From Corynebacterium suedekumii (GTDB lineage: Bacteria > Actinomycetota > Actinomycetes > Mycobacteriales > Mycobacteriaceae): DNA of 64,000 nucleotides. The DNA lies in assembly GCF_030252185.1 (NCBI RefSeq), contig NZ_CP126970.1:124001-188000 (forward strand), read 5' to 3'. This document shows positions 35,418 to 48,625 of the stretch, piece after piece; the first letter of the stretch is position 1, and each line of letters opens with the position of its first letter. The position numbers were made by a program, and so were the translations under genes. The notes below the pieces were generated by a model. The model searched no databases. It saw only the letters and a program-made list of their open reading frames with translations, and was not told the origin of the DNA.

Positions 35418-35490
35418 GTGGCTGTAGTTCAGCTGGTAGAGCACCAGGTTGTGATCCTGGGTGTCGCGGGTTCGAGCCCCGTCAGCCACC
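35418..35490 (+). tRNA. tRNA-His (anticodon GTG)
   Basis: Acceptor GTGGCTG/CAGCCAC, anticodon stem CCAGG/CCTGG with loop TTGTGAT, and T-arm GCGGG-TTCGAGC-CCCGT. The extra G-1 is encoded at 35417 and the discriminator is C. The accessory island begins about 450 bases downstream. Confidence 0.93.
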
Positions 35491-35496
35491 CTCAAG

Positions 35497-35535
35497 AAGT
35501 ACCCTTACCTGCACAAAAAGGTAAGGGTACTTTTT
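35497..35535 (+). terminator. rho-independent terminator after tRNA-His
   Basis: A perfect 13-base inverted repeat (AAGTACCCTTACC / GGTAAGGGTACTT) is followed by a run of T ending at 35535. Confidence 0.9.
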
Positions 35536-35651: not shown

Positions 35652-35987
35652 ATGCACAACCACATCAGTCACGCCCTCAGCAGCCACCTGCACGCAGCAT
35701 CCCCAATCCAGGATCGACTCGGCCGGGAACGGCACATCCACTCAGTAGCTGTGAAGATTAATCAGGAGGACCCACAGACCGCGTGGGTCACCATCACCGA
35801 TCGCACAGACACCGGTGAACTCAGCGATCACCTATTCAGCTACTCCTGGCCCGGCAGATTGTTCGTCGACAGTCTCACCGATGCCATTCTTGAGTCCTAT
35901 CTGCATGTGATCACGGGCGACGAGTACGTGGGGGTGTCCCCCTTGAGTGGACACGCAGGATTGATCAAGCAGCGGGTGCCACGGTAA
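35652..35987 (+). pseudogene. hypothetical protein truncated by an IS3 element
   Basis: An open frame of 111 codons starts at ATG 35652 (MHNHISHALSSHLH). The first 94 or so residues are native. From 35935 the frame runs into the left end of an IS3-family element, which supplies the last 17 residues and the stop. The native part is unremarkable: a His-rich start and an alpha/beta-like sequence (VAVKINQEDPQTAWVTITDR). No family is recognised. Confidence 0.55.
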
Positions 35988-36258
35988 CAGCCGTGGCGCG
36001 GTGTTCGAAAGCTCTCGGCGATAAGTAACTGATCCCGGAGTGCCGACGACGTGTGTTGTACCTCGTGATCCACCGGAACACCTCCCGTCGACACTGAACC
36101 GGCGACGCCCAACCACCAGAACCTTGCAGCGTCTCCCGCTTCAGCGAGGCGTTGAACGACTCAGCGATCGCGTTATCCGCACTCGATCCGATCCGGCCCA
36201 TCGACTGGCGGATCCCCAGCCTCCGGCACGTGGCCTGGAACGCTGAGGAGGTATAGAC

Positions 36259-37756
36259 GGCGGGTTCAACCGGTCGTTGCAACACCGGGTTGTTGGAGTA
36301 ACTGTAGCTGCTCGGCGAATACCTCGGCCGGGGTCTTCCAGTTGAGGATTTTTCGGGGCCTGTTGTTGAGCGCGATGGCGACGGCTTCGAGGTCCTCAGC
36401 CGACCAGCGGGAGAGGTCGGTGCCTTTCGGGAAGTACTGACGTAGCAGCCCGTTCGTGTTCTCGTTCGTGGGCCGTTGCCAGGGCGAGTGTGGATCAGCG
36501 AAGAAGACCTTGGTTCCGGTGTCAAGCGTGACCTGCGCATGTCCGGAGAGCTCTTTCCCACGATCCCAGGTGAGAGTCTTGCGTAACTGAACAGGCAGCG
36601 CTGTGAGAGACGTGCTCAGCGCAGCGTTCATCGCACCAGCACCGTAGCCGCCCAACGCGGGGCCGTTCTTCACGACAGGTTGCTCGCCCCATCCCGTCAG
36701 GCGGGGCAGATGCACCAACATAGTGGAACGGCTCGAGCGTTCCACGAGCGTCCCGATCGCCGACCGGCCCGTACCGATGATCAGATCACCCTCCCAGTGT
36801 CCGGGAACCGCCCGATCGGCGGCCTCGGCGGGCCGTTCGGACAACACGACGTCCGCGGTGACGTGACCCTGGGGTGTATTCCGTGACCGTTCCCGGGGTC
36901 GGCGCAGCGCCCGCCCAGGACGCAAGCAGGTGACCAACTCACGTTTCAGGCCGCCACGACCCTCGATGAACAGTGACTGGTAGATCGCCTCCGGGCTGAT
37001 GCGCATGGATTCATCATCGGGGAAATCGATGGTCAACCGGTGAGAGATCTGCTCGGGACTCCAGGCAAGCGACCAGCGACGATCCGCCCGATGCGGCTTG
37101 TTCAACCCTTTCCACGGCACCGGTGTCGGCCCATCAACCACGGATCCGTCAGAACGGCGAATGTTGCCGGAGAGTCGCTCCTGCACATACTCACGCAGCA
37201 CCACGTGAGAGACGAGTTTCGCAGTTTTCGGGCGCTTCGCGGCCTGTTGCGCTTTCCACTGTGCCACCACCGCCCGATACTCTTGTTTCCCGCTGCGGGT
37301 TGCAGCGTTGCGCCGCAGTTCCCGCGAGTTAGTCCCCGGGTCACGCCCCAGCTCACGGGCGATCTGCCGCACTCCCAAGCCCGTGGCCCGCAGGATCGCG
37401 ATCTCCTCGAGCTCTTCGAACGACAGGTACCTACCCGAGGGCTCGTTCAGGCTCAGTGGTGGCATGCCCCCAGCATGCCGAAACCAGCGCGTACCCACCG
37501 GCACGGACACTCCTACTTTGAGCGCTGCCTCCGCCGAGGTGATGCCCGTCGCGATCAAGCGCCAGAACTCACGCTGCACCTCCCGCGAGGGTTCCGGACG
37601 ACCGGGCGACCGCATCGGGGGCCGCAACGCCCGATCCGCACGCCACTGCCGCCGCGCACCCTCGTCCACATCGCTCGTCCTCGCGATCCAATCCTTCGTC
37701 GCCACAGCTGAACACCTCCATCAAAAGGGGTGTTGCGACGACCAGTTGAATCCGCC
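36259..37756 (-). mobile_element. IS30-family insertion sequence, 1498 bp
   Basis: The terminal inverted repeats are 28 bases (36259-36286 and 37729-37756) with three mismatches, starting GGCGGRTTCAAC. A 3-bp GAC duplication flanks it (36256-36258 and 37757-37759). Removing the element and one GAC restores the IS3 orfB reading frame (HGS-V-YTSS), which proves the boundaries. It carries one intact transposase gene. Confidence 0.95.
36266..37705 (-). CDS. IS30-family transposase
   Basis: 479 residues, apparently intact. An N-terminal helix-turn-helix region (YLSFEELEEIAILRATGLGVRQIARELGRDP, core GVRQIARELGRDP) is followed by a DDE core. The catalytic residues lie in GHWEGDLIIG (first Asp), TWDRGKEL (second Asp) and PTNENTNGLLRQYFPKG (Glu). 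The start is GTG 37705. The gene nearly fills its element. Confidence 0.93.
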   Translation of the reverse strand: MATKDWIARTSDVDEGARRQWRADRALRPPMRSPGRPEPSREVQREFWRLIATGITSAEAALKVGVSVPVGTRWFRHAGGMPPLSLNEPSGRYLSFEELEEIAILRATGLGVRQIARELGRDPGTNSRELRRNAATRSGKQEYRAVVAQWKAQQAAKRPKTAKLVSHVVLREYVQERLSGNIRRSDGSVVDGPTPVPWKGLNKPHRADRRWSLAWSPEQISHRLTIDFPDDESMRISPEAIYQSLFIEGRGGLKRELVTCLRPGRALRRPRERSRNTPQGHVTADVVLSERPAEAADRAVPGHWEGDLIIGTGRSAIGTLVERSSRSTMLVHLPRLTGWGEQPVVKNGPALGGYGAGAMNAALSTSLTALPVQLRKTLTWDRGKELSGHAQVTLDTGTKVFFADPHSPWQRPTNENTNGLLRQYFPKGTDLSRWSAEDLEAVAIALNNRPRKILNWKTPAEVFAEQLQLLQQPGVATTG

Positions 37757-38359
37757 GACGCTGCCGTGGTCCGAGTGAAATATTGCCCCGTCCAGGGAGC
37801 CTCTCGTGCGTGCCGCGTCCTCAATCGCGTCCTGGACGAGACTGGTACGCATGTGGTCCGCAAGCGAGTAGCCGACCAGACGCCTGGAACAGACGTCGAT
37901 GACCGTGGCCAGGCACATGAATTCCTCCTTTCCCGCAGGGCAAGTAGGTGATGTCGCCGATATAGAGCTGGTTGCAGTCCTCGGCGGTGAAGTCTCGGCC
38001 GACGAGGTCGTCGAAGACCCTCGCGTCCTGGTCCGGGATGGTGGTGCGTCTCTTCTTGCGCAGGTTCACCCCGGCGATCTGGTGCTGGCGCATGAGACGT
38101 TCGATGCGTTTGTGGTTGACCGGCGTGGGCGCGGTGTCGTTGATTTCGGCGGTCATGCGGCGCACTCCGATCGTGGCGTCGAACTCCTCGTGGTAGTCCC
38201 GCATCTGGGCCACCAGCACCTCATCGGCGTGCTGGCGCTGCCTGCGGGCAGGCTTGCCGTCCCGCCACTTGTAAAAGCTTGACCGGTTCAGATTAAGGAC
38301 ATGACACAACCGCTTCACCGAGTAGGTGGTGGCGTAGTCGTCAACGAACTGGAAGCGGA

Positions 38360-38670
38360 TCACCAGGTCGTCTCTCCCGCGAAATACTTCGCGGCCTTGC
38401 GCAGGATATCGCGCTCGGTGGAAAGCTTCTGGGTCTCCGAGCGCAGGTGCTGGACTTCTTTGCGCAGGCGCAGCAGCTCGTCGGTGGGGTCCGCGGCGGT
38501 GCGGCTGGGCTGGACGCCGCGGCCCTGCGGGCGGCGTAGACCCAGTTCTTCAACGTCGCCCGGCTGATGCCGAGGTCCACGGCGATTGAGGAAAAAGAAG
38601 CGCCCTTGGTGTCCTCGTAGAGCCGGACCGCGTCGGCTTTGAACTCATCGGTGTAGGTGTTCTTCGGCAT
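38360..38670 (-). pseudogene. IS3 orfA (helix-turn-helix), frameshifted
   Basis: It starts MPKNTYTDEFKADAVRLYED, a typical HTH_Tnp_1 N-terminus. After VYAARR the original frame is lost near 38530 (GCAGGGCCGCGGCG). It continues in another frame as DELLRLRKEVQHLRSETQKL and ends KYFAGETTW, where TGA overlaps the orfB GTG. One missing base explains the shift; intact length about 103 residues. Confidence 0.75.
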
Positions 38671-38735: not shown

Positions 38736-38813
38736 GCCCCCAGGACCCCTATATGTTGTGCCACCCCGAACCCCACCCCATGGTCAGCTACGCACTCCGA
38801 AACGCGAAGAGCC
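38736..38813 (-). mobile_element. solo end of an ISL3-family element
   Basis: The reverse complement begins GGCTCTTCGCGTTTCGGAGT and matches the left end of the ISL3 element at 47168 almost base for base for about 78 bases. It then stops where the IS3 element begins. It is in opposite orientation to that element, so two ISL3 ends point into the interval 38814-47167. Confidence 0.85.
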
Positions 38814-38864
38814 GGTTAAGCTGACAATAGGAGAACATCGTCGTGAGGTGTTTGAGAAGATCGC

Positions 38865-39218: not shown

Positions 39219-41136
39219 TCAAAACATTGCCGGTTCGTCGTCTACCTCCACTAGGATCAGGAGTTTTTCCAGCGGTACCCGGGCCTCGGGATCAGCTTTA
39301 CCTGCCGAGGTGAACTCCAGCCCTTCGTCGGTGAGGACTTCTCGTGCGGTTCGGGTCTCGCGGGGATCCAACCAACGGAAGTTCTCCGCCACAGCCCCGT
39401 CACCTCGTAGCACCCGGTGGGCATTGAGGACCTCGTGCTCGGCAAGGTGATTGCCAACTGATTGGGCGTTGGTTCCCGCGGCAGCGGCGACATCCCCGTA
39501 GCTTGCCCAGTGACCAGCGGGAATAGTCGCCACAATCGACCTGACCTTGCTCCACAGCGGCGACAGATCAGTATCTGCCACCCCGACGTCGATGGGGCCC
39601 GGCCAGGTGTCGATGATCTGATCCGCCAGCAGACGGGCCCGCTCCCGGATCTCATCGGGACCCCACGTCTGGAAATCCTCGAGGGTTCGGCTCAGCGCGA
39701 GACCGGACTTCAGGTACGCGTCCTTTTTCAGATCGAACGACTTGTTGCCCATCTCGCTGTTGTACCCGGTCAGCGTGAGATTACCCAGCGTGTGCACGGT
39801 TGCGTTGTGCATCTCTTCGACCTGGTCGTCCCCGTAGACGGAAGCCAGATGAGCGCGCCACTCTGCATTCAACGTCTGCGGCATGATGTGCTCGATGCTC
39901 AGCTTCGCGGTGTCGACCGGTTCTTTCGAACCGAAGGACTCCTCCAGCCACCGCAACACGATACTGCGGTGGCTGCGCCGGCCATTGAGGAAGTATGGAG
40001 ATTCAGCCACACCCGCTCGGACGCGCTCGTCGGTGGCGAAGTGGCGCCGCCCGGTGGACAACAGGCGGTGAATCTGCCGGTCGACCGGCTCCTGGTCGTC
40101 CAGCTGGTTGAGGATCTGCGGGAAAATCCGGTTGAGTCCCTGAGTGCTTTGCCCCATCAGAAGGCGTCGGACCAGGTATGACTCGATCAGATGCAGTGCT
40201 CGTTCAAGTTCCTCGTTGCTGACACTGCCCTGTGCGCGGCGACGCAGCAGTTCCAGCATCAGGGCATGCGGGGTCGAGGCATCCCAGGCTTTCAGCCGCT
40301 TCAAGCGGAAGCGGACACCCGGGTCTTTCTCCCGCGCGGGGTCGAGAATCAACGCGTACTGGCCGGCCAGGGAGGCCAGACGGGCGACCTCGTGTTCGAT
40401 GTCATCCTCGGTTCCCAGGTTGGACAGCTTCTTCTGGTACTCGTTGAACGTGTCGTTGATCTTCAGGGTGGGTTTGGTGGCCAGCAGATCCAGCCAGAAC
40501 AGCTGCTCGAGGGCCTCGTTGGTGGGAAGCAGGTTCTGCATCGGCATCCAGTACCGCTTATGAACGCTGTCTCCGCGGGTGGGCAGGCCCATGAAGATGA
40601 AGTTGCGGATCAGATCACCCTGGGTGAGCTTGAGTCCGGTGTTGTTCAGGGACTGGAAGATCCGGTGGACGTTGTCCTCCGGATGGGTGCTGATGGATAC
40701 CACTGTCAATCCCATCAGGACCGCAGTTTCCAGGTGGGCGATGTCCTCGGGGTCGTCAGGGTCGTCGAACTCTTCCAACCGGGAGCGGAAGAACCGGAAG
40801 GCTGCGCCGACCTGGTCGTCACCTCCGCTGTGGGCATCGCGGTTGATCACCGCGAAGTAGGCGTCCCGGTCCTGCTGGGTGGGCACCAATTTCACATGGC
40901 GATCTCCTTCCTCATACTGGTTGGTGAGGTAGGTGTTATGGATCCGCTCGCCGGCATACGGTTTTTCATGTGCGTTGCGGTAATCCCGGATAGCGGCTAG
41001 AAGCAGCGTGAGGGTGGTCAGTCGCTGCTGGCCGTCAACCACGAGGAAGCGGGAGATACTCACCGCGCTTTGTGCCGCGTCCACGGGCACCAGCACTAGC
41101 GAGCGGGTCTGGTGCAGGGACTGGTGACAGTTCTGG

Positions 41137-42039
41137 TTAGGCCGCGAGGGCCAGGTCGTTGTTCATGATGGTCTCGAACTCGATGGGCGTCAAACGGCCC
41201 AGGCGGACCTGTCGACGTCGCCGGTGATAGGTCCGCTCGATCCAGGTCACGATCGCGATGCGCAGCTGTTCGCGGGTGGCCCAGGAGCGCCGGTTCAGGA
41301 CGTTCTTCTGCAGCAGGCTGAAGAACGATTCCATCGCCGCGTTGTCGCCGCAAGAAGCAACCCTGCCCATCGAGCCGACGAGATTATGGGTAGCGAGTTC
41401 GCGGCGCAGCTTCCTGCTTCGAAACTGCGACCCTCTGTCCGAATGAACGATGCAGCCGTTCACGTTTCCGCGCATCCGGGCGGCGTTGCGGACAGCGCGA
41501 ACCGCGAGAGATGCCTTCATGCGCGAGTCGATCGAGTAGCCCACGATCCGGCCGCTGAACGCATCCTTGACCGCGCAAAGATAAAGTCGGCCTTCGCTCG
41601 TTTTGTGTTCCGTGATGTCGGTTAGCCAGAGCTGGTTCGGTCGGGAAGCGACGAACTGGTGGCGCTCCCGGCCGCGCTCGTCGATGACGACACAGAGATC
41701 ATCATGAACAGCAGGGCCAGGCTTCTTGCCGTTCTTGCTCCGCTTCTTCCCGAACACACTCCACCAGCCGTTCAACGATGCGATCCGCCACGCCGTCCGA
41801 TCCGCCATCGGCTCGCCCTCGTCGCGGGCTTCGTCGGCGAGGAGCCGATACCCGAACTCCGGGTCGTCACGGTGAGCATTGAACAGCGCGTTCGCGCGAT
41901 ACGCCTCCTCCAACTCCCGCCTTGTGACGGGGTTGTTCAGCCAGCGGTAGTACGGCTGACGAGCGAGCTTCAATACCCGACACGACACCACGACAGGAAT
42001 CCCGTCCGCGGCGAGCTCGGAAACGAGCGGGTACATCAT
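41137..42039 (-). CDS. IS3-family transposase OrfB
   Basis: 300 residues with an N-terminal HTH_21-like region and a complete rve integrase core. The catalytic residues lie in LTDITEHKT (Asp), IVHSDRGSQF (Asp) and DNAAMESFFSLLQK (Glu). Its ATG overlaps the orfA stop (ATGA). No disruption is seen, so the element may be active. Confidence 0.93.
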   Translation of the reverse strand: MMYPLVSELAADGIPVVVSCRVLKLARQPYYRWLNNPVTRRELEEAYRANALFNAHRDDPEFGYRLLADEARDEGEPMADRTAWRIASLNGWWSVFGKKRSKNGKKPGPAVHDDLCVVIDERGRERHQFVASRPNQLWLTDITEHKTSEGRLYLCAVKDAFSGRIVGYSIDSRMKASLAVRAVRNAARMRGNVNGCIVHSDRGSQFRSRKLRRELATHNLVGSMGRVASCGDNAAMESFFSLLQKNVLNRRSWATREQLRIAIVTWIERTYHRRRRQVRLGRLTPIEFETIMNNDLALAA

Positions 42040-42329
42040 TTTCCCGGCAGATGAGCCTGAGACAGATACGCGGTCGCGCGGCGCAGGACCTCGACCTCCT
42101 GCTCGAGGAGGCGATTGCGCTTACGGAGATCACGCAACTCCACGGACTCCTGCTTCGTCTCACCCGGCTGTTCGCCGGCCTCGATGCGGGCCTGCCGCAT
42201 CCACTTATCGAGAGTTCCGACATGGACGCCGAAGTCCTTCGCGATCTGCGCGAGCGTCACTTCCGGATCACGATTCTCCGCCACGCGGATCACGTCGTCG
42301 CGGAACTCCTTGGGGAACGGCTTGGGCAT
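42036..42329 (-). CDS. IS3-family transposase OrfA
   Basis: 97 residues. The helix-turn-helix N-terminus (MPKPFPKEFRDDVIRVAEN ... VHVGTLDKWMRQ) is followed by a leucine-zipper-like region (LRDLRKRNRLLEQEVEVLRRAT) that usually mediates pairing with OrfB. It is the first gene of the IS3 element. Confidence 0.92.
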   Translation of the reverse strand: MPKPFPKEFRDDVIRVAENRDPEVTLAQIAKDFGVHVGTLDKWMRQARIEAGEQPGETKQESVELRDLRKRNRLLEQEVEVLRRATAYLSQAHLPGK

Positions 42330-42726
42330 GATGACATCCTTCCAGGCCAGCCCTCTCGGCTAGCCACGCTCGATGTCACCAGTTCCTGCACCAGACCCAG
42401 CCGATGAAGTGGTTGGTTTTCGGGTTGTCCCGGCGGTCTTTGACCAGCTCGACCACGTCATCCCATAAGGTCTGCCACTGCTCGGTATCCCACTGGTAGG
42501 GACGCTGATACAGGGGCACCATGTACTGGTTTTCCCCTTCCAGCACTTTCCTTAAGATCGCTTCATCTGCTTTGACCATCGGATGCTCTCCATCTGCTTG
42601 CTTCCGCCAGGTGCGCTGTTCAGCCTGCACCAAGCGCCAGCGTTGACGACTATCTTCCTGTAAACCTCCACCGTACTGGGCTTTTTTGAAGACAGCAGGT
42701 AAATAAGAGGGTCTAGACCCCTTCTA

Positions 42727-43428: not shown

Positions 43429-44541
43429 CTATTCGGCCAGCGCTCGGTAGAGGGTGGCTCTGCCAACGCCGAGGTCTTTGGCGATGGCGACCTTGGATGC
43501 GCCGGCGGCCACCCGTTGGCGGGCTTTCTCCAGGTCCTCGGGGCTGATGGCGCGTTTGCGTCCCTTGTACTTGCCCGCCTTCTTCGCCAGGGCAATCCCC
43601 TCGGCCTGACGCTCGCGGATGATGGAGCGTTCAAATTCAGCAAACGATCCCAGGATGCTGAGCATGAGAGTGTCTCTCGGATCGGTGGAGTCCCTCGAGA
43701 ACGTCAGGCTCTCCTTGAGAAAGTGCACCGAGGCGCCCTTGGCGGTGATCTGGTCGATGATGCCGCGCAGATCCACCAGGGAGCGCGCGAGCCGGTCGAT
43801 GGAGGCGACATAGAGTTCGTCGTGGTCGCGCAGGTAGTCGATGCAGTTGTCCAGGCCGGGCCGGTTAGCTCTGGAGCGGGCGGAGAGCTCGTCGATGAAT
43901 TCCTTGTCGACTGCGCCGATCATGGCGCGTTGGCGGGCAAGGTTCTGGTCCGTGCTCGAGACCCGCAGGTAGGAAAACCGTTGCCCCTTCGGCGCCGACA
44001 CCAGTGCCGCAGGGGTCGGGACCGCGAGCTGCGTGGTGGGGGTCGTGGTCGGCGCCACCGCGGGCTCGCCCTGTGGCTGCTTCTCCCCTACGTCTTCGGC
44101 AGGCTCCGAGGATTGTCCGTCGGGCTCGTTGGTGATCTCGGCGGGGTGGTGCCAGGTGGGGATGGCCCAGCCGATGCTCGCACCACCGTCGAAGCAGATG
44201 TCCCTGGTCGAAAAGTCCTGGACACCAGACCACGAGTCGTCCCCGAGGTAGGCCTGGGCCTTGGTGATCACCGCATAGACCCGCTGGATCTTCAGCCGAG
44301 CCTGCGGCGTCCCCGCCAGGCCGAGATAGGTCGCATGCCCCGGATTCTGGGCGTGCTGTTCGAAGCGGGCGCCACCGTCGTCAAGGATCAGCTCGGTGGC
44401 CACGAGCTGATCGGTAGGTGACCAGGAGCGACCGTCGTTGGTGGAGTGGCGGATCCGGGTGGTTTTCTTCGACTTGCGGATGATCTCCACCCGGTCCTCG
44501 GGCCGGCCGACGGTGTCGAGCAGCGTGCCGAGTCTGACCAT
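43429..44541 (-). CDS. serine recombinase (resolvase/invertase) with unusual N-terminal domain
   Basis: 370 residues from ATG 44541, which has GGAGG five bases upstream. The C-terminal half is a complete resolvase: the catalytic region YLRVSSTDQNLARQ, VASIDRLARSLVDL, GSFAEFERSIIRERQAEGI, and a final helix-turn-helix (VAIAKDLGVGRATLYRAL). The first 185 residues are not part of any resolvase known to me. They include a globular part (about 1-135, e.g. GHATYLGLAGTPQARLKIQRVY) and a Pro/Thr/Gln-rich linker. It is divergent from the RloC-like gene. It may move or rearrange the island. Confidence 0.85.
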   Translation of the reverse strand: MVRLGTLLDTVGRPEDRVEIIRKSKKTTRIRHSTNDGRSWSPTDQLVATELILDDGGARFEQHAQNPGHATYLGLAGTPQARLKIQRVYAVITKAQAYLGDDSWSGVQDFSTRDICFDGGASIGWAIPTWHHPAEITNEPDGQSSEPAEDVGEKQPQGEPAVAPTTTPTTQLAVPTPAALVSAPKGQRFSYLRVSSTDQNLARQRAMIGAVDKEFIDELSARSRANRPGLDNCIDYLRDHDELYVASIDRLARSLVDLRGIIDQITAKGASVHFLKESLTFSRDSTDPRDTLMLSILGSFAEFERSIIRERQAEGIALAKKAGKYKGRKRAISPEDLEKARQRVAAGASKVAIAKDLGVGRATLYRALAE

Positions 44542-44728
44542 CCCCGCCTCCAATGTCTAACAGAGTTATTGACCTCATAGGGCTTATTGATACAGGGGAT
44601 ATTCCTGTCGGCCAACCGTCTCCCTGGGGTGTAGCCCATTCGTCACGAGCTGAGTTATAGACAGAGCCGAGTCAAGGCAGCTAAGGTTTAGAGAACTTTC
44701 CCTTGAGTATCTTAAAAGGTGACTTGAC

Positions 44729-46981
44729 ATGATCGAAGTTGAAGCCAATAAATCTGTAAAGAACGTCGCAGAAAATGCTTTGGCTGGGGTACGGCTGTTG
44801 ACAGATTCAGTCTTTTTTGGAGTCAATGGTGCCGGAAAGTCAACAGTTTGTGAGGTACTCAATCAGGCCGCAACTTTGAGGCACGATCGGCTAGATGCGG
44901 AAGGACCACTTCATGTCTTCGCCTTCGACGATAAATGGCGGAAGGATAAGGTTGGGGATTTCGTCGAAGGCGGATCAGCGGAGGGCGTCACTACTGTCAA
45001 ACTGAACGATGGTGCGAGCGGTCTTGAAGAAAAGATTCGAGAGGCCCAATCGGAGTGGGAAGCGGCTAGAAGCGACGTGAAGGCAAAGACGCTGTTGAAG
45101 CAGTCCGCTACAGATCGCCAGAAGGCGATTGTGAATAATGTTGCCGAGGGCGTCCGGAAGACACTTGAAAAGGAGTGCCCCAGCTTGAGCGGACAGCGAT
45201 TTCAGCGGCCAGCAATTCGCGCGTTACTGGAAGAGGGAGACTCCACAGTTTTGAGTCAGAGTAAAGTCGAAGAGAAGCTTGTCATTGCCGCCTCTCAAGC
45301 TCCTGGGTTTCTTCCTCAGCTGCCAAGTCCTCCGCGGGAATGGTCCTTTACCGATCACCTATGGCAGGAAGTAACCGCGGAGCCTTCCGCTTCTCAAACG
45401 ATGGTTTTAATCATCAACGACTGGGTCCGTGAAGGTATAGAAGTACATGAAGCCGGAGATTCCTGCCAATTTTGCGCAGGAACGGTCACGACAGAGAGGA
45501 TGGAGGCCCTCAAGAGTGCGGTCCGCCAGGCTGAGGAAGAAGCATCCTCATTAATCAAGAGCGAATTAGCAGAATGCAAAAGCGTTTCTTTAACGCTGCG
45601 AAAATTCAAGGACGCGTTAGAAGCGACTGATCTCTCCTCGTCAATTTACGGCGCAGATTTGCAGCCGAAGAAGACCGAAGCTCTGCTCGAAATAGGACCT
45701 GTACTGGATGGACTTAAGGCTTCGGAAGATTTACTCGAAGAGCGGGCAAAGAATCCCCGACTTCCAATTCATGGAGCGAAACCGGAGATTAATTTTTCTA
45801 AGCTCCTAGGAAAGTACAGTTCCCTCAAAGAGAGTCACTCCAAAGCGACTGAGGAAATAGCGCAGCACTCTCAAAATCAAGCGCTGGCAGTTAACCAGTT
45901 GAAGAGGCATTGCTGCGCTACGGACGGATCTGGATGGAGTTCCGCTGCAGTAGCACTTGAAGAAGCTGAGCGAGAGACGGTGGCGGCAATCAGAGCGGAG
46001 AAGTCCGCGAAGGACAACCTCGACGATCTCAAGCGACAAGTGTCAACTACCGCTGATACGGCGGAATTTCTCGATAACAGTTTGGGATTAGTCCTGGGAG
46101 AAAAAACCCTGCGCGTGTCGGAGGGAAGTCTAGGCGAGGGATACCGCATTACCCGCCACGATCAGAGAGCCGATGGAATGTCAGAGGGTGAGAAAAAGCT
46201 GGTCTCGCTACTCTATTTTTGCGCAGAGTTTCTAGCAGAAAATCGAAAACAGTTGCTAAAATACAGCGTAATTATCTTCGATGATTTGGGGTCGGAACTG
46301 GACGAGCCTCGATTGCTGGCAGTTGACAGATTCATCTCCAACCACTTTCAGAACCCGAAACCTGCTGCGCTTCTTTATTTCACCCACAGCCATACATACC
46401 TAAAAATCTTACAATCTCGCCTTGGCGGACGGGCTGTTGAGACTAAACGAAAGGACCAGGTCGTTCCCCCGAAAGCAGTGTTCTACGAGGTCTATAAAGA
46501 CAGCTTCAGCGGTCGGAAACAGTCCACCCTTTGCCGTAAGTGGGATGATGAAGCGATAAAACTGACCAACGATTATTGGCTTTCGTTCTATATGGTGCTG
46601 CGAGCGTTCGAGGACTTACAAGCCGGCGCACTGCCCACTCTGGGGACAGGGAATTTCTGTCGTAAGGTCCTCGAAGGGTTTACCGAGTTTCGAGCACCAG
46701 GTGATGAGCAGTTTGGTTCTCGAATCGATAAAATTCTATCGGAAAAAAGACTTTCCTTATCGCCCGCGCTTTCGAAGATCGTTAACGGACTCTCCCACTC
46801 CGATCTGAACAAGTCTGGTGGTGTGTTTTCGCGAAATGAAGTGGAACACTCGGTAGTGCAAACGCTCAATTTGATGCGGCTAGTAGATGAGGAACACTTC
46901 CTTGCGTTGTTGATTAAATTCAGGGGTAAGCAAGACGCTAATAGCATTGAGAAGGCTTTGCAGCAACGGACAGGGATATAG
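44729..46981 (+). CDS. RloC/PrrC-like AAA_13 ATPase, putative anticodon nuclease
   Basis: 750 residues. Walker A GVNGAGKST is at 31-39, ABC-type signature MSEGEKK at 484-490 and Walker B VIIFDDL at 514-520. The centre is largely helical, with a CQFC motif (C246-C249) like the zinc hook of RloC and Rad50. The C-terminal 130 residues contain NFCRKVLEG (R645, E649) and NGLSH (H690). This is the R-x3-E ... H arrangement of PrrC/RloC anticodon nucleases, so tRNA cleavage on phage attack is plausible. Base composition is much AT-richer than the core genes, indicating transfer. AAGGTGA precedes the ATG. No type I restriction genes are adjacent, which fits RloC better than PrrC. Confidence 0.72.
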   Translation: MIEVEANKSVKNVAENALAGVRLLTDSVFFGVNGAGKSTVCEVLNQAATLRHDRLDAEGPLHVFAFDDKWRKDKVGDFVEGGSAEGVTTVKLNDGASGLEEKIREAQSEWEAARSDVKAKTLLKQSATDRQKAIVNNVAEGVRKTLEKECPSLSGQRFQRPAIRALLEEGDSTVLSQSKVEEKLVIAASQAPGFLPQLPSPPREWSFTDHLWQEVTAEPSASQTMVLIINDWVREGIEVHEAGDSCQFCAGTVTTERMEALKSAVRQAEEEASSLIKSELAECKSVSLTLRKFKDALEATDLSSSIYGADLQPKKTEALLEIGPVLDGLKASEDLLEERAKNPRLPIHGAKPEINFSKLLGKYSSLKESHSKATEEIAQHSQNQALAVNQLKRHCCATDGSGWSSAAVALEEAERETVAAIRAEKSAKDNLDDLKRQVSTTADTAEFLDNSLGLVLGEKTLRVSEGSLGEGYRITRHDQRADGMSEGEKKLVSLLYFCAEFLAENRKQLLKYSVIIFDDLGSELDEPRLLAVDRFISNHFQNPKPAALLYFTHSHTYLKILQSRLGGRAVETKRKDQVVPPKAVFYEVYKDSFSGRKQSTLCRKWDDEAIKLTNDYWLSFYMVLRAFEDLQAGALPTLGTGNFCRKVLEGFTEFRAPGDEQFGSRIDKILSEKRLSLSPALSKIVNGLSHSDLNKSGGVFSRNEVEHSVVQTLNLMRLVDEEHFLALLIKFRGKQDANSIEKALQQRTGI

Positions 46982-47167
46982 CAAGCCGCCCCACGAAGCT
47001 GAAAGTCAAGGCTTAGTGAGATGTGCAGTATGTCTCATTCGCGCATACCCCAAGAAGGCGGTTGAGTCTTCTAAACCAGCAAGGACACCGCGGCGGCCCC
47101 TCAAGTGCATTACCCCACCCTTTAACTTGCACTGGGCAGGCCATATGCGGAGAAATCGGGCTTAGGC

Positions 47168-48625
47168 GGCTCTTCGCGTTTCGGAGTGCGTAGGTGAGCC
47201 CAGGGTGGAGTTCGGGGTGGCACAACATGTAGGGGTCTTGGCCGGTACAAGATGAGAGTTGCGAAGCTTCCATCTGACCGAACCAGGACCCTACTGTGCA
47301 GCCTACTACTGGCAACCTCGTGGCCGACACCATCTGCCGTACTGCGGAAATCGGCCTGACCATCACCGGTGCCGCCGACGCCGGTACCCTCACCATCATC
47401 GACGCCGCACCTGTGACCGTGGACGGACTCTGCCCCGAGTGCGGAAATCCCGGAAAGCTACGGGACCACATCGTCCGGACCCTGGTCGACCTTCTCGTCG
47501 TGGGGTTCCCCACCCGCCTTCATGTCCGTGTCCCGAGGTTCACCTGCAGCTATCCAGCCTGCGGCAGGAAGATCTTCCAGGCCTCCCTGACGTGTGCCGA
47601 TGATGGTGCGAAGCTGACCCACCGGGTCACCCGCTGGGTCCTCCAGCGCCTGGCAGTCGATCGCATGAGTGTGTCCGCCACGGCGAAAGCACTCGGGGTG
47701 GGCTGGGAGCTGGTCAACCAGGTCGCTGTCCACGCCTGCCGCAAGCTTGTCTACGACAACCCCTCCCACCTGGACGGCGTACGCATCCTCGGGGTCGACG
47801 AGCATGTGTGGAAGCACACCCGCCGCCCCGGCCAGCCCTCCTCGTTCGTGACGGTCCTGGTGGACCTCACACCCCTGGTCACCGGGGCAGGTCCTGCCCG
47901 GTTGCTGGACATGCGCCCGGGACGCAGTGCCGAGGTCCTGCGAACCTGGCTGCAGGAACGCAGCCCTGAGTTCAGGAGACAAGTGCAGGTAGTGACCATG
48001 GATGGCTTTGCCGGCTACGCCACCGCAGTGGACCAGGCGCTGCCTCAGGCGAGAAAGGTCATGGATCCCTTCCATGTCGTGCACCTGGCCGCGGACAAGC
48101 TCGACCTGCTGTCGGCAACGCCTGCAACGTGAAACCTCGGGGCGGCGTGGGCGTAAGGATGATCCATTATACAAGTACCGACGCACCCTGTTGACCAGGA
48201 CGAACTACCTCACCGAGCGGCAGAACAGGCGGCTGGACCTGTTGTGGGCCACCGACGATGAGTACGTCGCACTCGAAGTCACCTGGATGATCTCACAGGA
48301 CCTGATCCAGGCGTACGGGCATCCGAAGAAATCGGAGGGCAAGAAGCTCATGAGCAGGGTGATCAACAGCATTCGTAAGGGCCTACCCGAAGGTCTCACG
48401 GAGCTTGCCCAGCTGGGACGGACCTTGTGGCGCCGGCGTGAGGATGTCCTGGCGTACTTCGACATCGGTGCATCCAACGGCCCGGTCGAAGCCATCAACG
48501 GACGGCTTGAGCACCTACGCGGCATCGCACTCGGGTTCCGGAACCTCGACCACTACATCTTGCGGTCACTGATCCACTCCGGCCAGCTGCAGGCCAGGAT
48601 CACGCACTCTAAATCGTGAAGAGCC
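47168..48625 (+). mobile_element. ISL3-family insertion sequence, 1458 bp
   Basis: The terminal repeats begin GGCTCTTCGCGTTTCGGAGT on the left and, reverse-complemented, GGCTCTTCACGATTTAGAGT on the right. No 8-bp target duplication is seen (GCTTAGGC against ACTTTGAC), so the flanks have been rearranged since insertion. It marks the right edge of the accessory island. Confidence 0.92.
47296..48619 (+). pseudogene. ISL3-family transposase, frameshifted
   Basis: The first frame (47296 to about 48108) has a zinc-finger-like region (CPECG ... CSYPACG) and catalytic motifs VDEHVWKH and MDGFAGY. It ends prematurely after HLAADKLDL. The rest continues in the next frame (CRQRLQRETSGRRGRKDDPL ... GASNGPVEAINGRLEHLRG) with the last acidic catalytic residue. 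One extra base near 48110 separates them; intact length would be about 440 residues. Unless slippage in the CTGCTG run rescues it, the element cannot move itself. Confidence 0.88.

Follow-up and report, generated by a model that had tools for sequence, protein, structure and literature searches.

What does an intact gene in an IS-riddled region of Corynebacterium suedekumii encode, and does the divergent C-terminus of its product mark a separate branch of a known family? The gene lies at 44729-46981 in the window, the whole 64,000-nucleotide stretch of DNA that we analyzed. A preliminary description, made from the sequence alone, had called the product an RloC/PrrC-like ATPase with a zinc hook and an anticodon-nuclease triad, and had added that it may be a distinct branch. 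We conclude that it is very probably an RloC: an abortive-infection protein that stands alone, moves horizontally and has putative tRNA-cutting activity. In kind it is an ordinary, real RloC; its hook class and its set of cysteines are unusual.

RloC motifs and the C-terminal domain

The gene is an uninterrupted open reading frame on the forward strand that encodes a 750-residue RloC-type protein, and its start methionine is common to most aligned relatives. The preliminary description had the frame, its coordinates, Walker A, the MSEGEKK signature, Walker B, the CQFC motif and R645/E649/H690 right (Table 1); it made no mention of C150 or of H394-C395-C396. In the available sections of the defining paper, RloC is a protein of 658-897 aa with PrrC-like ABC motifs, an ATPase domain split by an insert with a CX2C motif, and a C-proximal Arg-X3-Glu-X36-52-His motif in which Ser often precedes the His (PMC2610378). 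The window protein has all of the RloC ABC motifs: Walker A, the signature, a Walker B/D-loop sequence (IIFDDLGSELD, around residues 518-525) and the switch histidine. An insert splits its ATPase between Walker A (31-38) and the signature (484), C246 and C249 form the central CxxC hook, and R645 is followed by E649 and, after 40 intervening residues, by H690, with Ser689 before it.

Table 1. Coordinates of the rloC-type gene, its motifs and neighboring features in the window
Feature	Position	Strand	Remark
rloC-type gene, 750 aa, intact ORF	44729-46981	+	
Walker A, residues 31-38, G-x-N-G-x-G-K-S	44819-44842	+	
C150	45176-45178	+	39/40 HCC-clade rows, 0/22 other H-type rows
H-type hook, H240-x5-C246-Q-F-C249	45446-45475	+	CQFC is 246-249
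H394-C395-C396, second arm	45908-45916	+	Clade-specific motif; 37/37 homologues
ABC signature MSEGEKK, residues 484-490	46178-46198	+	
Walker B acidic residues D518-D519	46280-46285	+	
H553, switch/linchpin histidine position	46385-46387	+	Invariant; role taken from the RloC paper by analogy
R645-x3-E649 of the anticodon-nuclease triad	46661-46675	+	
H690 of the triad	46796-46798	+	Preceded by Ser689
H723	46895-46897	+	Outside the published triad; kept in both RloC classes
tRNA-His	35418-35491		Left edge of conserved synteny
Transposase, HTH_38 and integrase-core parts in overlapping frames	35965-37705		Presumably IS30-like
IS3-like fragment	37821-38363		
GmrSD-like gene	39219-42633	-	C-terminal alkyltransferase-like DNA-binding domain (PF01035)
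IS3-type element splitting the GmrSD-like gene	41105-42398		25-nt inverted ends
Resolvase	43429-44553	-	About 190 residues before the catalytic domain
ISL3 transposase in two frames	47296-48619		

Profile matches extend over nearly the whole protein. Pfam AAA_13 covers residues 30-696 (E = 1.8e-48), and the gene is the sole AAA_13 match in the genome (one contig, 2.86 Mb). PADLOC PDC-S06, a candidate single-gene defense whose model entries carry no description, covers residues 92-727 (E = 2.1e-52). In an alignment of the query with 31 of its 37 homologues, from which six shorter matches (482-733 aa) were excluded, R645, E649, H690, C246 and C249 are invariant in 32/32 sequences that share 31-94% identity. 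Together with the published triad motif and hook, these whole-length matches uphold the RloC half of the label "RloC/PrrC-like". The PrrC half falls: PrrC proper shares the ABC ATPase and the R-E-H triad, but, compared by description, it is a protein of 341-416 aa that is R-M-linked and has no hook insert (PMC2610378).

The same searches bear on whether the protein might instead be an SMC/RecF/RecN-like DNA-repair ATPase devoid of nuclease function; best matches to SMC or RecF without a HEPN-like domain were what the preliminary description had named as fatal to its proposal. SMC_N does reach 22 bits over residues 365-542 and RecF 30.5 bits over residues 482-538, but the curated cut-offs are 40 and 172 bits, AAA_13 and PDC-S06 are the best families, and the RloC triad is present in the C-terminal domain. 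We regard a repair ATPase as extremely improbable.

We scored residues 570-750 against profiles built from outside the HCC clade, the sub-branch with the H394-C395-C396 motif, and used 1000 shuffled versions of the window protein as the control. A profile of 14 non-HCC rows of the H-type class, which has H240 before its hook, gave E = 9e-20, compared with 0.096 for the best shuffle; the C-termini of two non-RloC AAA_13 proteins scored 4.4 and 9.8 against it. Against all 160 RloC rows outside the clade, E was 5.4e-7 (best shuffle 1; hhalign 92.7%), with CRKVLE aligned over MRRILE and LSHS over GSHN. R645, E649 and H690 align in register on the RloC triad. These profiles identify the C-terminal domain as the RloC nuclease domain by way of H-type intermediates. 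RloC and PrrC nuclease domains have been assigned to HEPN (PMC3710099, in the part available). The motif layout, family membership and domain homology of the window protein are established.

The route through intermediates matters, because the match to the class with CPFC hooks is weak: against the CPFC-class profile, the window protein gave E = 0.037 (best shuffle 0.38), and 26/40 clade rows beat the best shuffle. Homology to that class therefore rests on the intermediates. This distance, an hhalign probability of 16.9%, is one point in favor of a different substrate, in which an ABC-ATPase effector with an RloC-derived C-terminus would cut other RNA (mRNA, rRNA or another tRNA) and not the wobble position of tRNA-Glu, tRNA-Gln or tRNA-Lys. 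The sequence does not reveal substrate choice, and the tested RloCs differ in theirs (tRNA-Lys/Glu for Geobacillus kaustophilus, Glu/Gln for Acinetobacter baylyi, in the portions of the reports available). Against such a target, the intermediates keep the RloC-like order and spacing of the triad, the one exception being L097 with Asp for Glu. We consider another RNA target unlikely, and we retain tRNA as the expected substrate of the RloC. The distance from E to H is 41 in 39/54 H-type rows and 38 in 126/146 CPFC-class rows.

Several further residues stand out in this part of the protein. H723 is present in 146/146 CPFC-class, 40/40 HCC and 22/22 other H-type rows and is possibly a further active-site or structural residue. 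C644 (46658-46660) adjoins the catalytic arginine and occurs in 40/40 clade rows and 0/22 other H-type rows; it could confer redox sensitivity on the nuclease. C498 is found in 40/40 HCC-clade rows vs 1/14 other H-type rows. Separately, five AAA_13-type proteins (L033, L034, L070, L071 and L072) have CP[FY]C hooks, R-P-x-x-E and H-H for S-H, lack the H723 position and are maybe another ABC-HEPN class.

H-type hooks and the HCC clade

The closest tested relative in layout is the G. kaustophilus RloC, an anticodon nuclease whose triad is R692, E696 and H737; alanine at any of these abolishes activity (PMC2610378). Compared through its published residue numbers and CPFC-class relatives, not by sequence, it resembles the window protein in size class, split ABC ATPase, CxxC hook, R-x3-E and an E-to-H distance of 41. 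It differs in that the window protein has an H-type hook, with H240 and no proline after the first cysteine, and the HCC motif.

We aligned 209 sequences and then removed seven rows that lacked a complete RloC-type C-terminus. Leaving aside two isolated H240 rows (P0099 and L119) as well, the class counts cover 54 H-type and 146 CPFC-class rows. H240 is present in 29/29 dereplicated H-type rows. The dereplicated CPFC-class rows all have Pro247 and Asn374 (70/70), and most of them (45/70) have Leu or Tyr at position 240.

A tree of 100 rows below 62% identity, built without the hook and HCC columns, separates the 29 H-type rows from the 71 others with an SH-aLRT of 100 and places 20 HCC rows on one side of a branch with an SH-aLRT of 99. 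The tree was made by a quick method without bootstrap and is midpoint-rooted, with some long branches. Our first motif filter missed variant Walker A and signature sequences; 14 rows were added, of which eight with H240 were counted and six without it were not. With the eight in the tree, where they were not checked against the 62% identity limit, support is 99 for the H-type class and 98 for the HCC clade. Their hooks are looser, with a histidine 3, 4, 5 or 8 residues before the first cysteine and, in one, CIHC. The tree thus supports the earlier suggestion of a distinct branch: judged by sequence, the claim holds for an H-type class, with H240 before a CxFC-like hook, apart from the CPFC-hook class, and for the HCC clade inside it. 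We found neither the H-type nor the HCC branch described in the accessible parts of the open-licence literature searched.

The HCC clade comprises proteins of Corynebacterium, Trueperella and Arcanobacterium and adds to the hook the arm residues C150 and H394-C395-C396. All 37 homologues, which were picked by similarity rather than by motif, have HCC. C395 and C396 occur in 40/40 clade rows and C150 in 39/40, the exception being P0022, in which HCC is present and position 150 is Ser. C150 and C395 are absent from the 22 other H-type rows, and C396 occurs in one of them, L007; none of the eight added H240 rows has any of the three. In the 346-column insert, the 14 clade-invariant columns hold 4/6 cysteines (Fisher p = 2.4e-5), a value that is partly circular, HCC having been the criterion by which the clade rows were selected.

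Counted from the head ends of the arms, C150 is 58 residues along arm 1 and C395 is 44-50 residues along arm 2; an antiparallel hairpin like that of Rad50 could thus bring the two face to face midway. From this conservation we infer that C150, H394, C395 and C396 may form a second metal- or thiol-type site, a "clasp", midway along the coiled-coil arms. HCC has a single origin on the tree, and the joint appearance of the cysteines is therefore not independent evidence of contact. The serine of P0022 also speaks against the clasp, and covariation gave it no decisive support. Searches by sequence found no solved relative of the protein. Our tentative reading, which we think less likely than not, is an RloC branch with two metal/thiol switches in one sensor arm, the H-type hook and a C3H clasp, that would give two-input gating.

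H394 could alternatively belong to the hook of the same RloC, such that H240, C246, C249 and H394 complete a metal site within a single chain; the hook then need not join two molecules, and the extra CC pair would be accessory. H394 is present in 52/54 H-type rows of the first set and in 27/29 dereplicated rows, where it is the best-kept insert position after R257. Yet it is found in only 2/8 of the further H240 rows, and we rejected its near-invariance across the class. With 40/40 in the HCC clade but 14/22 in other H-type rows, H394 is not a mark of the whole H-type class. It lies about 145 residues beyond the hook, and histidine occurs at 394 without H240 in 5/70 dereplicated CPFC-class rows. 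Covariation was also tried as proof of contact and was not decisive, as the mutual information of 240 and 394 ranks 1483 of 225250 pairs and rests on only 2 independent contrasts. A single-chain hook seems to us quite improbable, and we keep H394 in the proposed clasp.

H-type RloCs also occur on mobile elements: Rhodococcus/Dietzia plasmids (L059, L060), a Klebsiella plasmid (L063) and viral-collection contigs (L095, L096, L098, L099, L100, L102 and L104). These ten share the H240 hook and the triad with the window protein, and 9/10 have H394, but they lack C150 and C395 and show about 17-26% identity. The plasmid of L063 is typed as conjugative, and its RloC is present at at least 99% identity in 88 plasmid records.

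Mobility and surroundings of the gene

At E <= 0.001, 37 protein clusters match the 750-residue protein. The named clusters come from Trueperella, Arcanobacterium and Corynebacterium, apart from one labeled Chlamydia trachomatis, which we take for a mislabeled sample. Matches are found in 13/242 Corynebacterium genomes: six, the window's own included, have full-length clade members (751-1209 bits), one has the gene in two frames, and six matches are weak. Phage records gave no match at 1e-5. The Corynebacterium glutamicum plasmid pCG4 (L064 3962-4417) retains a remnant of the last 131 residues, matching residues 620-750 at 93.9% identity, which suggests recent movement of the gene. Genes for an Abi family protein and a PIN-family toxin lie close to this remnant.

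The gene is AT-rich against its neighbors, as had been noticed, with a GC content of 0.502 vs 0.678 in the rest of the window. It is likewise AT-richer than its flanks in 6/6 relatives (GC 0.45-0.49 vs 0.54-0.65). It also stands alone, between a resolvase on the other strand and an ISL3 transposase. The promoter of its own that the preliminary description gave it did not appear in a consensus scan of 44300-47300 (0 sigma-70-like promoters vs a mean of 1.5 in shuffles) and is implied only by the fact that the upstream gene points the other way. The type IV restriction-like gene reported nearby is indeed GmrSD-like, but it is not intact, being split by an IS3-type element.

On the left side, 25/25 relatives match; in 23 the match ends at 35489-35498, the 3' end of tRNA-His, and two match in short pieces only. 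Matches on the right side consist of short pieces in 15/25 relatives. The left boundary fits a variable region that begins at tRNA-His, although the conservation of the tRNA itself would also make matches end there. A search for a tRNA-His attachment repeat found only 13 nt, in another tRNA. An 82-nt inverted repeat (38740-38821 / 47160-47241) is 88% complementary; its right arm overlaps the ISL3 left end, and the left arm may therefore have been left behind by an element of this type. The rloC-type gene has survived intact in a worn, mobile, IS-riddled region.

We compared ORFs within 8 kb of the gene in the window and six relatives by all-against-all BLASTP. The loci have in common IS proteins, a LacI-like pair (25%) and short frames, and no fixed neighbor was seen among them. 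A hidden partner gene was considered and rejected: of ten neighboring ORFs in Trueperella, Corynebacterium sp. MSK008 and C. meridianum, seven matched nothing in Pfam, and no family is common to the remaining three. A GmrSD-like gene also lies near L127 (3-2105; 28.8% over 476 aa, 3e-43), making a loose GmrSD link possible (2/7 loci).

Proposed mechanism and implications

In the mechanism that we propose, the two split ABC-ATPase heads would act as a pair, and the long helical insert with its metal hook would serve as a DNA sensor, probably of free ends, that keeps the C-terminal HEPN-class domain silent. Once activated, this domain would cut, and probably excise, the tRNA wobble nucleotide by means of R645/E649/H690, and translation would stop. 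We would expect the protein to remain silent until DNA breaks, as in phage attack, and then to cut tRNA and arrest translation. The C150/H394/C395/C396 site could be a second lock or a redox/metal input.

We carry over three features by analogy from the tested RloCs: activation by DNA breaks, control by metal and the cutting of tRNA. In the available parts of the reports, hook mutations raise and zinc lowers the activity of the G. kaustophilus protein (PMC2610378), which is activated by linear DNA with ATP hydrolysis, and the A. baylyi protein is activated by a DNA-break inducer and cuts tRNA-Glu and tRNA-Gln (PMC3874168). In a Streptococcus thermophilus survey, RloC is entered as "not tested" against phage, in the part available (PMC12322248). 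We looked in the genome for a type I partner in trans and found no HSDR_N match, in line with the internal switch described for RloC (PMC3874168).

RloC is a tRNA-cutting defense with a built-in trigger, and in the portions of the literature consulted the control of the nuclease by the hook is not settled. A natural class with a different hook, together with a cysteine-rich sub-branch, offers ready-made comparisons for metal control. If the two-switch reading is true, the hook would not be the sole gate of the nuclease, which would answer to two inputs, for example DNA ends and the zinc or redox state.
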